The notes under the pieces were generated by a model, which saw only the letters and a program-made list of their open reading frames with translations, did not search any database and was not told the origin of the DNA. A DNA stretch of 64,000 bases from Echinarachnius parma (lineage: Eukaryota; Echinodermata; Echinoidea; Clypeasteroida; Echinarachniidae), in assembly GCA_037951105.1 (NCBI GenBank), contig JBAMJV010007378.1, positions 1 to 64,000 on the forward strand. Reading direction: 5' to 3'. Position 1 is the first letter of the stretch; the number at the start of each line of letters is the position of its first letter. Positions 7,226 through 60,830 of this stretch are shown here, piece after piece. The position numbers were made by a program, and so were the translations under genes.

Positions 7226-7401
7226 AGCATTCTTATTATCCTGTTAAAGTATTTTTTGTTCTATTTTATTGTTCTATTGCTTTATGAATAATAAGGCTAT
7301 GAATTTGTTATTCATAATGCACAATTTATCAATATTTTGAAAGTTTTTGTAAATAAAAATATATTTTCATTTTCTGATTTTATCAAATTGTTCCTATGCA
7401 G

Positions 7402-26691
<19,290 letters not shown>

Positions 26692-42180: not shown

Positions 42181-43572
42181 CCAACGCTCGAAATTAGCAC
42201 AGGCCCGATGGCCCGGGGCCACCAAAAATTGCTGTCGGGCCAGTAAAAAACTCATAATTCCAATGTTTGCTGGCCCGATCGGGCCATCATATGTTGAAAC
42301 AATTGTGCACAATATTATGGTTCTTATTGCAAATTTGATACCTCACAGAAAATACTTGATTTGTGGTTTAAAAAGAGAGGAAAGAGAGAGGTCAATAATG
42401 AACAGTTTTGTGTGATTTTTTCTCTTCTGCCTACAGCTTAGAAAAGGCGCAAATTATTATAATTAGCATTATTTCTGCCCCGCCCCCATGTAAAATTTGT
42501 ACAGCATGTTCCACTTGGGATAGGTAGAAGGATATCAAATTAATTCTGTTATCAGTTCAGTTTGTTTATAAAACTTGAATAAATAATAGGAAATATCAAG
42601 AATAATATTTGCTATACTTGCGGAAATAAGTTAAGAGAAATGTTGTCCGATTTGTAAAAGTTTAAGTTGTGTTTTTTTTTTCCATTCTGTTTATCCCCAC
42701 ACCCCCGGTTTTGTGAATGGAGCTTTCCAATTCCAAATATGGAATGTAGTGAGTGTGCATGCATATTTACGTGAGCATAGAATGTTTACGATCAATTCAT
42801 CAATGTTTGACACCAAAATTTCAACAAAAAAAACCCACAATTTGAAAATATTTAATTTATGTGAGCTTTATAAACAATAATCCATGGTAAAGTGAGGTTA
42901 AAAGTCTGAAATGTGAGAGGATATTTTAATAATCGATCAAATTTGGTTCGCATGTAAAAAATTCACAATCTGCATTGTCTACGTTTTGTGTTGCCGCCGA
43001 TGTTGTGACTGTGTCTGTGTAAGTTCACGGAAGAATTTATAAATGTTTGACTAACAGTTTTACAAATATAACACCACAATTTGGAAAATGTGTCATTCAT
43101 GACAGGTTTCAAAACAATATTCTACGGAATTGTGAGATTAAAGTCTGATATATAAGTACAAATTTCCATTATCAATCAAATTTGTTATGCATGTAAAACT
43201 CAATAAATCATGTTTGCCGTATTCGAAATCGGATACAGTAGATCGGTGACTTGTCAATGTTTGCAGCCGATGAATCGGCTTTTTGCCTTACAATTATTAG
43301 CTTAAAACACCACAATTTAAAAACATGTTATTTGTCTGAGATTTTCACATGACATTTACACAGAATGTTGAGGTCAAATTTGTATAATAACAGTGAATTT
43401 TCCACTTTTCCACAGTTTTGAATGTGCTATGAATTTTCTCGTTTTTTTCTTTTGTTTTTCTTTATTTTCTTCGGGCCAGTAGATTTTGGTTTCGGGCCAC
43501 CAAAATTGGAAAAATACTAATTTTACTGGCCCGACCGGGCCACCAGCAAAAAAAGTTAATTTCGAGCGTTGG
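42181..43572. mobile_element. 1.39-kb TIR element, CCAACGCTCGAAATTA ends
   Basis: Inverted ends CCAACGCTCGAAATTA / TAATTTCGAGCGTTGG, flanked by TATAG on both sides (42176-42180 and 43573-43577). Subterminal GGCCCGAtnGGGCC-type palindromes occur at both ends. No open transposase frame. It contains the palindrome TTCGAAATCGGATA (43222), also seen near 51343. Confidence 0.82.
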
Positions 43573-43777
43573 TATAGCTCAAGTTGAACAAATTAGTAGA
43601 ATACCGGCCACTGAGATAAAAGTGAGAAAGTTTATTTCATGTATAGCTCACCTTGATCATTATTTTGGATATATAAATAACACTTCTAAAATATAAACCT
43701 TGTCACCTCATGAAAATACATGGCATTTTTGTACATGATTTCAAGGAAATACACTGATTTTCTAAATGCATATATTA

Positions 43778-44340
43778 TTAAAGGGATAGTTGAGTTTTGG
43801 TATAGAGGGTGCTACACAAAATAATTTTTTGTGAGATAATGAAAAACTGAGTGTCAAATTCGAAAGAGCATACAATTTTAATGACAGAATAAACATTATT
43901 TGATCAAAATCGGTTCAGAAATGGCTGAAATATCCATAAAATAACCATTTGTAATAAATGTGGGGCCCCACAATTATTAGACAATTTTGAATCGGCCGTT
44001 AAATTTTTTTTTTAATGTTTCCTCGTTTCAAAAATGTACAAAATAGATTTTTATATAGTTGTTGATTATCTCTCTATCTAATCACTATTTCAACAAAACA
44101 TCACATGCACAATATTTAATTTAAAATGGTTGAAACCGATGAGTGTTTAGAGAGCGCCCTCTTGAGTTAGAACGGCTCTTTTTGAATGATAACAGGCTTT
44201 TTACAAGTAGTAATTTGTAATGTTTTATTCCTTTTTAGTTATAATTATTAGTTTGTAATGTAATGGTAGAGGTTTTGCTTACTAAAATTCAGTTTGACCA
44301 AAACTGTACTCTCATTACCAGAACTCAACTATCCCTTTAA
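43778..44340. mobile_element. 563-bp TTAA MITE
   Basis: TTAAAGGGATAGTTGAGTTT at the left and CAGAACTCAACTATCCCTTTAA at the right, TTAA included. It shares the internal AGAGCGCCCTCTTGAGTT with the copy at 38047-38551. Confidence 0.9.
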
Positions 44341-44635
44341 GTTGCTACCTTAAGGCTAAGTCTACCCTATTTATATATAAGCATAACTTCATACACTGCT
44401 AGAGTTTGATAAATACAAATTTTGCAGAAAAAAACACTGATGTTTGCAGAGATCAGCTTACAATGCTGAACTAGTACTTGGCACTCTGACTTTTAGACCG
44501 TTTCTTCATTTTAATATGACAAAAATGAGAATGAATGTTTTTCTTGCGAGGCCCTTTTGTTACTTCATTTTGTATTCATGATACTGCATGTGAGTTTCAT
44601 GCCATATCAGATATGCCAGGCACAAATTTATGCAA

Positions 44636-44641
44636 TTTATT
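44636..44641 (-). terminator. candidate poly(A) signal of ARL6IP5-like gene
   Basis: AATAAA on the minus strand, about 270 nt beyond the readthrough frame. It is the nearest canonical signal I see, and use is not shown. Confidence 0.35.
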
Positions 44642-44908
44642 TTGCCAATTTTCCGGCCAAATACTAGCAGTGCTGTAATGTTCTTATCTACTACTATGTT
44701 TTAAATACATTTCATATCTTTTGATTGCTTGTGACAGATTAAAAAATCAAAACAAATGGTCTGCATTGGGATGACAAATGTCCATTAGAGCATTAGGCAA
44801 AAAAACAAATATGATTAAACCCATCAGTACCCAGCCATCAAAAGACCACATAGTAACTATACTCTAGGATTACACACTGTAGTACTGCTGGTACTGAAAC
44901 TGAAAGGA

Positions 44909-45238
44909 TTAGTCCAACTTGGGTTTAAGCGGAGCGCTCTTCTTGGGCTGGCAGGTAATAATCTCCCTCTCCTTTGCTTCAACCGCATACTCAACTGGAC
45001 CTGGAGAGACCCCCACACTCCGGGGAGAGCTCTTCCAGAACACGGGGAAGAACTTTCTGAGGAGGAGCCACACGCCACTAGACCTTTGCCTTGACTCGCG
45101 CTGGATCTTACTCGTATACTTCTCTGACTCTGCTCCTCTCACTCCGTTGCCATTTCTCGCTTCTAGGTTGAGCTGGAATGTGTGCTCGTTGCCTGCCAGT
45201 AGCCGCCTGTCGCACATCCGCACCCCGAGCTGAGCTAG
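44909..45238 (-). CDS. candidate stop-readthrough extension of ARL6IP5-like protein
   Basis: Directly after the UGA of the ARL6IP5-like gene the same frame stays open for 109 codons, ending at TAA (44909-44911). The stop context is UGA followed by CUAG, the best known readthrough-promoting context in metazoan mRNAs. The stretch is GC-richer than the flanking UTR-like DNA and has coding-like composition. The peptide starts LAQLGVRMCDRRLLAGNEHT, has a hydrophobic/aromatic patch VWLLLRKFFPVFWK in the middle and a basic end CQPKKSAPLKPKLD. I recognise no domain. Sequencing error at the stop, or plain 3' UTR, are the alternatives. Confidence 0.55.
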   Translation of the reverse strand, partial: LAQLGVRMCDRRLLAGNEHTFQLNLEARNGNGVRGAESEKYTSKIQRESRQRSSGVWLLLRKFFPVFWKSSPRSVGVSPGPVEYAVEAKEREIITCQPKKSAPLKPKLD

Positions 45239-45378
45239 TCATGAGCGTGCCTGCTCCTCGAGACCCATGTTGAAGAGGATGATGCCCATTGGCGTTCTCT
45301 TCAGACCCAGGGACTCCAGTCGCTTGCTCATCTTGTTCTTCATGTTACGCATCCTCGTCGAGGCATGGACAAATATCA
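45239..45378 (-). CDS. ARL6IP5: ARL6IP5-like exon 3
   Basis: Acceptor TTTATTACAG. It encodes [34 protein letters not shown] and [11 protein letters not shown], then UGA at 45241-45239 with CTAGCT following. KRTPMGI is the signature shared with vertebrate ARL6IP5. Confidence 0.93.
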
Positions 45379-46779
45379 CTGTAATAAACAAACAAAAATA
45401 CAAAAAGAATAACAGAGAGGGCAGAGATGGCAAGAATGAGACTAAACCATAACACTTAGAAAGATTTAGAAAAGCAAACATGCAGGGATTTTACATTAAA
45501 TTTTGTTTTAATGAAACAATCAAAATTATACTTTTAAAAATATTAAAATTGGAATCAGCAAACATTACTGTAACAAACACAATCTAGCTCTTTGCTTACT
45601 TACATATGTGTACAAGCAAAATGGTACATGTACTTAAAAAACCCAACATTTTCATTAACTCTATATTTCCTACTGCATGTCACGTCTGACAGTGACAGAA
45701 CTGTGGTCTTGACTTCTCTTTATTCTACTTACCAGCAAGAGGAACAGCCAGCCCCCAGATGAGAACAAGGATGCTTCCAAACAGATACATGAGCAACCAG
45801 ATGACCGCCAACAGGACCAGCAGACACATGACAGGGTGCTCCTTCTTGAACTTATTCACATCCCGCTTGTTGCTTGTCCAGTAGCTGAATCCGATAAACG
45901 CTCCGGTCACAATGGCAAGACCCCACAGCATCTGACCCGGGTTGATGCATCTGCAGATTGGTGTGTGGATGGAGTATGCATGTCAGAATATAACTAGGCT
46001 ACATGTGACCTTACAGCACAAAACGACCGTTAAGTTGCAGTAGTAGTTACTCTTTTATTAGCTGAATATATGAGATTTGGGCTTTTGTTATTCTCTGAAT
46101 TAGGGTATCTTAATCAATCGCTTTAAATTTATGGTAACTTTTACGAGAAGGACCCTCATTATCAAATAAAAGTAAAATTTTGCTGGTGTATTAAAGTCAA
46201 ATCTCTTTAACTAGGAGAACAGGATCACTGGAGACACAATATTTCACTAATTGTGCCGAGATAGCTTAGTGGTTTTGGCCCATGACTCATGAGACATGAG
46301 TGGTCACCGCATATCGCATCAGAGTTCAGACATTACAAATGAATACTGATCAATTTTGTCAAATTAAATGGAACGGCTAACCTAAAGTAAACTAAGGCAA
46401 CCTAAACCATCCACTTTTATTCCATCTACACACACACACACACACAGACGCAGACAAGTTTACCGTTAATATCCGTATTACCAAGGCTTATACTCTATTA
46501 CAAACACAATTAGTCATGAGTAAACTTAACTAACAAGAATTCAAGTCAAATCGCATTTTCAACAAACACAAATGTGTATGAGTGGGACAGTAACACTAAC
46601 CCCACTATCAGGAAAATTACCACCAGAACAAGAAAATAATTTGTTTGGTAGTAAAGAAGGTTGTCGATTACTCGATTTGCCCATCTCTCAGGATTGCTGA
46701 CCGCTGGCACTGAAAATCTGGCCGATTCTAGGATAAAATCGTCTACACTTCGAAGGCCCGGAATCTCGATATCGTCCAT
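45239..46779 (-). CDS. ARL6IP5: PRA1-family protein 3 (ARL6IP5/JWA-like)
   Basis: A small ER membrane protein of the PRA1/prenylated-Rab-acceptor family; the vertebrate ARL6IP5 regulates ER trafficking and glutamate transporter activity. Three minus-strand exons (46779-46601, 45950-45733, 45378-45239) splice to 178 codons. Vertebrate ARL6IP5 has 188 residues. Clear family matches are [25 protein letters not shown] before the first membrane pair, [12 protein letters not shown], and the C-terminal [13 protein letters not shown] and [13 protein letters not shown]. Introns have GT-AG ends in phases 2 and 1. The start has AAA before ATGG. The vertebrate KVKE-type ER-exit tail is missing from the 178-codon form, which stops early at a leaky-type UGA. 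The gene is divergent from SELENOK. Confidence 0.93.
45733..45950 (-). CDS. ARL6IP5: ARL6IP5-like exon 2: membrane domain
   Basis: Acceptor CCAATCTGCAG, donor GTAAGTAG. It encodes [20 protein letters not shown], a cytosolic loop with [14 protein letters not shown], then a second hydrophobic hairpin ([20 protein letters not shown]). It enters after two bases and leaves one. Confidence 0.93.
46601..46779 (-). CDS. ARL6IP5: ARL6IP5-like exon 1 with start codon
   Basis: The start ATGG at 46779-46776 is preceded by GCAAA. It encodes the N-terminal acidic segment and [17 protein letters not shown], then the first hydrophobic helix, ending at donor GTTAGTGT. An upstream TTTATTAG may be a 5' UTR acceptor. 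Confidence 0.92.
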
Positions 46780-48512: not shown

Positions 48513-48750
48513 TGAAACCAATTAGAATTTCAATGGGTACCCATTGGTTTCAATGGGTACCCATTGAATTTAATGGGTAGGCCTACCCATTGAAAACCAA
48601 TGGGTACCCATTGAAATTCTAATTGGTACCCATTGAATTCAATGGGTAGACATTGAAACTGAATTCAATGGGTAGGCCTACCCATCGGCATTGGTTTCAA
48701 TGGGTACCCATTGATTTCAATATTGGTACCCATTGATTTCAATTTGTCCA
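48513..48750. repeat. array of CAATGGGTACCCATTG palindromes
   Basis: At least seven exact or variant copies of the palindrome CAATGGGTACCCATTG (GGTACC centre), alternating with AATGGGTAGGCCTACCCATT and linked by TTTCAATGG-type steps. Dense self-complementarity means either strand could fold into many alternative hairpins. Confidence 0.9.
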
Positions 48751-49030
48751 AATTGTTTCATTTTCCATATGCATGCTCTTCGATTACCAATTGATTTCAA
48801 TTGGTAATGGGAATTTCACCCTGGGTAGATTGCCTCTGCTATTATATACCGGCATTGTCAGTGACAGTCAATGACATTTTCATAATTATACATGTTATGA
48901 CGTCACACGTCCAAATCAAGGATTACAAAGCGTAGCGAATGATATTATAATCACACATTTTAATAAAAACATGCCCATTTCCGAAAATTCACTGATCACA
49001 CTTCTCACTTCACGCTCCCATCTACTATAC

Positions 49031-58765: not shown

Positions 58766-59125
58766 ATACATGTAACAATCTATTCAAAGAGAATGATTTA
58801 GACAAATGTATAAATCATATATTTCTTGTAACAAATATTTTGTTGTGCATATTTATGAAATTATTAATGTTTTTGTACAGGGATGCACAAGGATACCAGT
58901 TTTGACTTTGAGGCAAAAGCCTGAATTCAGACCCTGTTCACCTGGAATTCTAGGCTATTTTTGGTAATTTTCCTCACAAATCAGGTTTCATGGCTCAGTT
59001 TTCAGGCTCTCCACTTGTAGCCAGCTGGCATCCCTGAATACCTTTAACACGTATTTTTATGATAATTACTAATATTTTGTATTAGTAGTTTGTTAATTGT
59101 GTTATTGTTGTAAATATTCTTCTTC

Positions 59126-59128
59126 TTC

Positions 59129-59191
<63 letters not shown>

Positions 59192-59340
59192 TTAGTATTA
59201 TTATTATTATTATTATTAGTAGTAGTAGTAGTAGTATTAGTATTGGTATTGGTATTATTTGTATTATTTGTATTATTATTTGTATTATTATTATTATTAT
59301 TATTATTTGTATTATTTGTATTATTTGTATTATTACATGT
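59126..59340. repeat. (ATT)n microsatellite with variant tails
   Basis: Runs of ATT, AGT and TTGTATTA-type units. Confidence 0.95.
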
Positions 59341-60830
59341 ATTATATTTATAATGATTGTTTTTTGTTTATATTACCATTATTATTGTGAATACTAAATG
59401 AAAGTGGTAAAAGGTGTAGTTTTATAAATATACAGTATAATTTTCTTCTGATAATGGAAGATTAGAGAATATAGATTATAGGCTACTGATTATTGCTGCA
59501 TTTGCATTGCAATACATGTGCATCAATTTTAAATTTAGTTTCTGATGTCATTACTATTACTTTTGCAAAGTCAGGTTACTACAGTAGTATCTGATTATAA
59601 AATATTCATGAATGTGGAAATAGCATTCAGAAACATTGTCATGTACCTACATTTGCATATATATGTATTTATTCTTGCTTCTTCGTTGTCTATTGTAGTA
59701 CAGTCCACCTACTGGTGCATTTAAGTTTAAAAGTAGGATACAAGAAATAAGAGAAACTGTCAAAGTATGACAGATTGGTTTATTTTAAATAAGTTATGCA
59801 TGTAGGTTTGTAATCCTCAAGGTGTATTATATTTATTAAAAATTGCTCTTAAGATAAAAATGTGTACAAACCTGAATTGAGCCTTATATGTATTTCATTT
59901 TTAGATAAATGTACCATCCTATATAAAACCCTCAAAGCAATAAGTTAGTCTTTTTTTCTTTCTTTTTTACTACCAGTGATCTTAGAAATTCCATTATTAG
60001 AATCAATCCATCACTTGACATGTTTTATTTTCTGTAATATCCATTTCTCTTTTTGTAATGCATTTAATTCCATGTGTTATTGTTGACATTTTATACTTAC
60101 AGGATAATTTATAATATACAGTATGTAAGGTTGCTGAACTGAAATGTTGCATTTTAGTTTAATAGATTGTACATTGTAATTATCTGCTCCTGCAGAACAT
60201 GGAAGGTTTCAGGGAGAAATATTACTTTAATACAAAACTTTGGAAACTTATTTGTGATTTCTGAATATGCTAACTGTTTATTATTAGTACAATGTCATAA
60301 TGTATAAGGAAAAGTCAGAAAAAACAAGATTATTACTCTTCTCATCTTGGTATACAGATCCAGTACGGCTATGATGAAAGTATAGTAAACTTATATGTAA
60401 TGTATATGTACTAATAAAATATTCTTGTTTACATAGTCAACGTATTGATGTCAATTATTAAGTAACTCTAACAATTATTTGTAAGTAAGTGTATTTCCTA
60501 CCATGGAACCCTACATATACATGTGCCACCCTCCCACCCCCTATAATTTGACAAAAACAGTAGAAAACATAAGGGTTGGAATTAACGAAGGAGGTATGTA
60601 AATAGACCATAGTTTTAATGATGTCATATGACGCAGATAAACCATGGTTTATTTACAAACCTATGTGAATTCCACCCAAGGGGTACACCACTGCATAGAG
60701 ATGTATGTTTGTGTTCTTGGGTGTGTTTATTTCTATGTGGTTTAGGGTTGATTAGATGTGTAATGCACATTTCGCCCTTACTATGTTACAACAAAACAAA
60801 ACATTCTATATAATTATGATAGTATGTTGA

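Follow-up and report, generated by a model that had tools for sequence, protein, structure and literature searches.

The closest described systems are vertebrate genes in which translation can proceed past a UGA stop codon followed by CUAG. This context is common to four efficient human readthrough cases, and UGA-CUA alone supports readthrough of about 1.5%, with a purine ahead of the stop codon favouring the process (PMC4132726). Similarly, an independent human study identified UGA CUA as the consensus by regression, and reporters gave values of about 0.6-2.3% (PMC4359377). According to the account in PMC5100048, abundant readthrough has been reported in Pancrustacea alone, and the catalogued cases come mainly from insects and crustaceans, with a few from human and worm.

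Here, we describe a sea urchin gene of the PRA1 family in which the stop codon lies in the same seven-base context as in the vertebrate genes OPRL1, OPRK1, AQP4 and MAPK10, and also MDH1 and LDHB (PMC4132726). As in these genes, the sense frame continues past a genuine, conserved stop codon, and the preceding base is an A, consistent with the preference for a purine (PMC4132726). By contrast, the urchin extension spans 109 codons, compared to 13 codons in MAPK10 (PMC4132726) and 18 nucleotides in LDHB (PMC4359377). Furthermore, unlike the vertebrate cases, it concerns an unrelated gene in an unrelated phylum and is known here from the sequence of one genome. As in the case of LDHB, where readthrough adds the peroxisomal signal PTS1 (PMC4359377), some copies of the urchin protein would acquire a short sorting motif at the C-terminus through the extension. 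Unlike the PTS1 of LDHB, the urchin motif is a candidate COPI signal of the KxKxx type on an ER membrane protein. MDH1 represents a further readthrough case in which a C-terminal targeting signal is added.

The evidence on the urchin gene is similar in kind to that available for the abundant readthrough of Drosophila and Anopheles, namely, coding potential in a single genome, and intermediate scores were obtained there as in the urchin tail (PMC5100048). Unlike the insect set, which falls within Pancrustacea, the present case comes from an echinoderm. The PRA1 domain of the 178-amino-acid urchin protein is shared with ARL6IP5/PRAF3 (JWA, GTRAP3-18) and PRAF2, and ARL6IP5 shapes ER tubules via this domain (PMC12136792). 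Unlike the putative urchin long form, the nine relatives that we fetched end at the position of the UGA.

Host gene and genomic context

The gene is located on the minus strand of the window, that is, the whole 64,000-nucleotide stretch of Echinarachnius parma DNA analysed here. It is a sea urchin PRA1-family gene of the ARL6IP5/PRAF type with three exons and a product of 178 amino acids:

46601..46779, minus strand: coding exon 1 (ATG at 46779; donor GT at 46600), the exons being joined in frame to give the 178-residue PRA1 protein
45733..45950, minus strand: coding exon 2 (acceptor CTGCAG; donor GTAAGT)
45239..45378, minus strand: exon 3, coding part (first base 45378; acceptor TTACAG; protein end ...QARS)

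The PRA1 domain (PF03208) covers most of the length of the protein (residues 7-150; 116.8 bits; E 7.3e-34 in Pfam), and in a protein search the full 178 residues were 81%, 78% and 77% identical to PRA1 family proteins of Lytechinus, Strongylocentrotus and Diadema, respectively, the three urchin sequences among the best 120 of 123 matches listed. The description of this gene as ARL6IP5-like in the earlier note is thus upheld at the level of the PRA1 family. The depositors named the three urchin relatives PRA1 family protein 2 or 2-like and three starfish relatives 3-like; that is, PRAF2-type and 3-like names occur alike among the relatives.

The host gene was found at one place only in its own genome and, therefore, there is no allele to compare. 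Other places with a PRA1 domain, on contigs C9472 and C2352, were considered as a second haplotype of the host gene and rejected, as they are two versions of a different gene of the RABAC1-like type. The two regions (L004 and L005) are about 91-95% identical over long pieces, which suggests that the haplotypes of a highly polymorphic animal were assembled separately. Upstream of the host gene, positions 48520-48820 contain arrayed GGGTACCCATTGAAATTC-like units, which occur in either orientation.

Elsewhere in the window, a gene for a plasma-membrane calcium ATPase (PMCA) has exons at 7378-26688 on the plus strand. Of eight stretches tested with Pfam, five gave a match, and the remaining ones are presumed to belong to this gene. 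The last of the stretches (26431-26688, plus strand) lies 12 kb further on, ends in ETQL and is probably part of the same gene. Three partial tandem duplications on the plus strand, 9107-9515 (80% identity), 12932-13093 (85%) and 13794-14024 (77%), overlap or just precede PMCA coding exons and may represent either exon copies that have decayed or spare exons for alternative use. The same region contains a tRNA-like match at 10281-10352 on the minus strand (Rfam RF00005, 34.4 bits), perhaps a tRNA-derived repeat. Finally, a long ATT/AAT simple-repeat tract with a GC content of about 0.12 and several open frames is found at 59047-59394.

Stop codon and its context

The end of the main frame and the sequence beyond it comprise the following features:

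45239..45241, minus strand: stop codon TGA
45235..45238, minus strand: CTAG straight after the TGA, the readthrough-promoting context, a motif tested in human cells (PMC4132726, PMC4359377)
44912..45238, minus strand: in-frame extension (tail) of 109 codons, GC about 0.56, with a frame-specific coding signal
44909..44911, minus strand: second stop codon TAA, with a GC change point nearby at 44929
44636..44641, minus strand: first AATAAA downstream of the gene

The TGA is directly followed by CTAGCT and preceded by an A. The earlier note placed the UGA at 45241-45239, followed by CUAGCU and 109 open codons up to a TAA, and these coordinates are exact: exon 3 begins with base 45378, and the TAA closes with base 44909. 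Its figure of about 287 residues for the long form gave the approximate size, but the exact count is 288 (178 + 1 + 109). The recognition of UGA-CUA(G) as a known leaky context likewise agrees with the two human studies (PMC4132726, PMC4359377).

The C-terminal residue (...ARS) is identical in all nine fetched echinoderm and hemichordate relatives (P0001-P0009). Because these nine proteins share their end residue, the TGA is neither a mis-sequenced sense codon nor the result of a recent truncation, and both a sequencing error and a recent nonsense change at this position are ruled out. Judging from these aligned ends, the TGA is a genuine stop codon at an old, conserved protein end, and the tail is an addition past that end. 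The three urchin relatives among the matches listed are 178 residues long each and, hence, none of them is annotated with the tail.

No polyadenylation signal (AATAAA or ATTAAA) is present between the TGA and the TAA, and the mRNA likely spans the whole tail, because the first AATAAA (44641-44636) is situated past the TAA. No stable stem-loop was detected 3' of the stop codon: the fold of the 79 nucleotides past the TGA is ordinary (z -0.41), being equalled by 68 of 200 shuffles, which rules out readthrough driven by a stem-loop.

Frequency of the context and of long open runs

The CTAG motif and the open frame are separate features, and their frequencies were assessed in the window together with 200 kb of another contig (264 kb in total, six frames). 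In this set, which includes the host-gene case, CTAG follows 21 of the 10,669 in-frame TGA triplets, and 88 of the 30,257 runs between stop codons, real exons included, are at least 109 codons long. The host gene is the sole one among the 21 TGA-CTAG sites with at least 60 open codons behind it. Based on composition, the probability of 109 open codons is 0.008 if the tail's own base frequencies are used and 0.0005 with those of the window, although such chance figures overstate the surprise, because the case was picked after the fact. Nevertheless, the counts of runs (88 of 30,257) and of sites (one of 21) support the original contention that a long open run behind such a stop codon is unlikely by chance.

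Composition and coding signal of the tail

The GC content of the tail is 0.555, compared to 0.521 in the exon 3 coding sequence, 0.300 in the preceding intron and 0.337 in the 409 bases past the TAA. The best single change point in GC is at 44929, 18 bases ahead of the TAA (support interval 44820-44935). There are three places in the window where GC reaches at least 0.54 over 330 bases, and the other two overlap exons of the PMCA gene. Within the tail, GC at the first, second and third codon positions is 0.56, 0.46 and 0.66, respectively. The same order (third, first, second) is displayed by all 12 stretches of our first training set, host gene included, and by 16 of the 20 kinase stretches that were added later.

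General measures of coding potential gave middling values. The tail shows weak three-base periodicity, with p = 0.084 in comparison with shuffles, and 16.8% of 310 windows that are presumed to be non-coding reach the same level. The Fickett value of 0.91 (p = 0.048 against shuffles) is attained by 2.9% of those windows. Given that these two measures were indecisive, we trained models on the animal's own genes. With the first 12 training stretches, among them the host gene, the tail obtained p = 0.020 under the codon model and p = 0.0026 under the position model, the latter changing to 0.0034 upon removal of the host gene. Synonymous codon choice alone gave no significant coding signal in the tail under the 12-stretch model (p = 0.31).

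The final position and codon models were built from 5,510 codons in 31 stretches of the same genome, 20 of them from kinases and 11 from other genes, with the host gene left out. The kinase stretches were hand-picked from 138 matches, being mostly high-scoring and stop-free, with one taken per seeming pair. Two of the training stretches, L029 and L030, look near-identical (the protein start is the same and the codon-position GC nearly so) and, therefore, the count of independent exons is slightly below 31. For the calcium-pump exons, we placed the boundaries by visual inspection of the translation, guided by the general layout of that protein, and five of the eight were confirmed by Pfam.

Under the final models, frame 0 of the tail is the best of the six frames. 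Compared to 5,000 stop-free Markov sequences with the dinucleotide make-up of the tail, the signal is significant in both the position (p = 0.0016) and the codon model (p = 0.0038), and the tail outscores six and eight of the 31 real exon stretches, respectively. As controls, we used 63 open stretches, each 80 codons or longer, from window parts that are presumed, rather than proven, to be non-coding. The position score of the tail was reached by one of the 63, the codon score by none and both scores together by none, in a control set that is not well matched, because just six of its stretches are as GC-rich as 0.5. Codons 28-54 of the tail score as non-coding-like. Overall, the composition of the tail is coding-like, best in frame 0, and this character ends near the second stop codon. 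Readthrough regions of insects also score between coding and non-coding sequences (PMC5100048).

Predicted tail protein and candidate sorting signal

The tail is basic, with a net charge of +9, and its translation includes the peptides EIITCQPK and SVGVSPGPVEYAVEAK. Two further segments were located:

45035..45073, minus strand: aromatic/hydrophobic patch VWLLLRKFFPVFW, tail residues 56-68 (translation and hydrophobicity scan)
44912..44926, minus strand: last five tail codons, K-P-K-L-D, fitting the KxKxx dilysine motif (translation; rule from PMC3521961)

An aromatic/hydrophobic patch and a basic end had both been noted in the tail before; the former corresponds to VWLLLRKFFPVFW, and the latter can be narrowed to a C-terminus of the KxKxx type. 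In this class of COPI retrieval motif, lysines occupy positions -3 and -5 from the C-terminus and the reader is beta'-COP (PMC3521961). Shuffling of the tail residues produces a KxKxx or KKxx end in 1.3% of cases, a figure to be read with the fit of K-P-K-L-D having been noticed after the fact. According to a review, PRAF3 depends on its extreme C-terminus, which contains basic residues, for its location in the ER and its retrieval from the Golgi (PMC9437294). Considering that K-P-K-L-D fits KxKxx and that the C-terminus of PRAF3 governs ER localisation, it is reasonable to regard this end as a candidate COPI dilysine signal on the long form. Alternatively, by analogy with MTCH2, the readthrough form of which is unstable (PMC7863902), the hydrophobic patch may serve to destabilise the long form. 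The predicted fold of exon 3 and the tail alone has a mean pLDDT of 39.9, which is too low to be informative.

Searches for relatives of the tail

Two word-seeded searches of 5.8 billion protein sequences yielded no homologue of the tail at E values up to 10; such empty results are weak evidence, because unannotated 3' regions are absent from the protein database. Neither the tail nor the frame antisense to it has a Pfam match. Together with the empty Pfam result, a DNA search of the animal's own genome, which skipped very common words and matched the window alone, argues against the tail being a copy of another sequence. No relatives were found in viral contigs searched with the main protein of Lytechinus or in prokaryote contigs searched with the tail. 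In the open-licence literature, we found no paper on readthrough of an ARL6IP5-type gene and, going by title and the start of the abstract, none on stop codon readthrough in echinoderms. Hence, the context is already known, and the host gene with its long coding-like tail is new as far as these searches reach.

Alternative explanations

The stop codon could be leaky without any function, such that a per cent or so of the ribosomes pass into a plain 3'UTR that is GC-rich and open by chance, and the longer product either serves no purpose or is broken down. Human genes offer a precedent, as 23 of them have UGA-CUAG and just four of these have a positive coding-conservation score in the analysis of PMC4132726. 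The absence of a tail homologue from the two protein searches, the non-significant synonymous-only score and the non-coding-like codons 28-54 point in the same direction. However, this explanation does not sit well with the frame-specific coding signal (p = 0.0016 and 0.0038), with the fall of GC near the second stop codon or with the fact that the other two places in the window with GC of at least 0.54 over 330 bases overlap PMCA exons, and we consider it unlikely. The coding-like composition would also be compatible with the tail being real code that is reached by another route, for instance, by alternative splicing from an acceptor in the CTAG joined to exon 2, or as a separate short open reading frame or an overlapping gene. 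As derived by hand from the coordinates, exon 2 could be joined in phase to an exon with 45234 as its first base, and a donor-like site, GTAAGA, is present within the tail. Yet, upstream pyrimidines make up 40% and 50% at the two candidate acceptors versus 65% and 70% at the two natural ones, the three urchin matches are all 178 amino acids long, with no such isoform among them, and the tail's first ATG stands in a poor start context, with a C at -3. Another route would, moreover, leave the UGA-CUAG context as a coincidence, and we regard it as improbable.

The identity of the stop codon, UGA, is what would be expected if it were recoded, either by selenocysteine insertion or by A-to-I editing to UGG. 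However, no SECIS element was found in the window at the gathering threshold or in the region 43300-45400 at E up to 5, whereas the candidate A for editing follows a G, which is a disfavoured 5' neighbour for ADAR, and the local fold is ordinary, so that recoding appears extremely improbable. Comparably little weight can be given to a real gene on the opposite strand with the sense frame as its shadow: the plus strand is indeed open over the same stretch (44913-45230, 106 codons), but this frame has no Pfam match and its position and codon scores are below those of the sense frame. Taken together, we judge functional UGA-CUAG readthrough in this sea urchin PRA1-family gene to be fairly likely.

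Proposed mechanism and implications

Under the readthrough model, translation of the urchin ARL6IP5/PRAF-like mRNA would normally stop at the UGA. The CUAG that follows would render termination inefficient, and a near-cognate tRNA would be accepted in a small share of passages, which human reporters would put at about one to a few per cent. In those passages, the ribosome would continue for 109 codons and synthesise 288 residues in all; the resulting C-terminal tail would be basic, with an aromatic patch and K-P-K-L-D as its last five residues. The KxKxx end might then allow the long form to be brought back to the ER by COPI, and a fraction of an ER-shaping, cargo-retaining protein would thereby gain a stronger retrieval signal.

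What the sequence establishes is the gene, its genuine stop codon, the context, the open frame and a coding-like composition that is best in this frame; readthrough in the animal, maintenance of the tail by selection and return of the long form by COPI are inferred. Readthrough in the urchin, at least at a low level, is likely, because the context acts through the ribosome and the release factor. Furthermore, small quantities of the longer form are probably produced in the animal, given that ribosomes are known to skip stop codons of this type in other animals and that the 109 codons look protein-coding. The complete scenario, in which an echinoderm uses programmed UGA-CUAG readthrough to add a 109-residue tail with a COPI dilysine signal to a fraction of a PRA1 protein, is more speculative, and we put it forward as a tentative and somewhat doubtful proposal.

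The known spread of functional readthrough would become wider with a sea urchin gene that has a long, coding-like extension, and it would be a case of a leaky stop codon giving an ER-shaping protein a membrane-traffic signal. If the complete scenario is true, ribosomal leakiness would set the ER-held share of a PRA1 protein in this animal, just as in mammals the fraction of LDHB that is peroxisomal is determined by readthrough.
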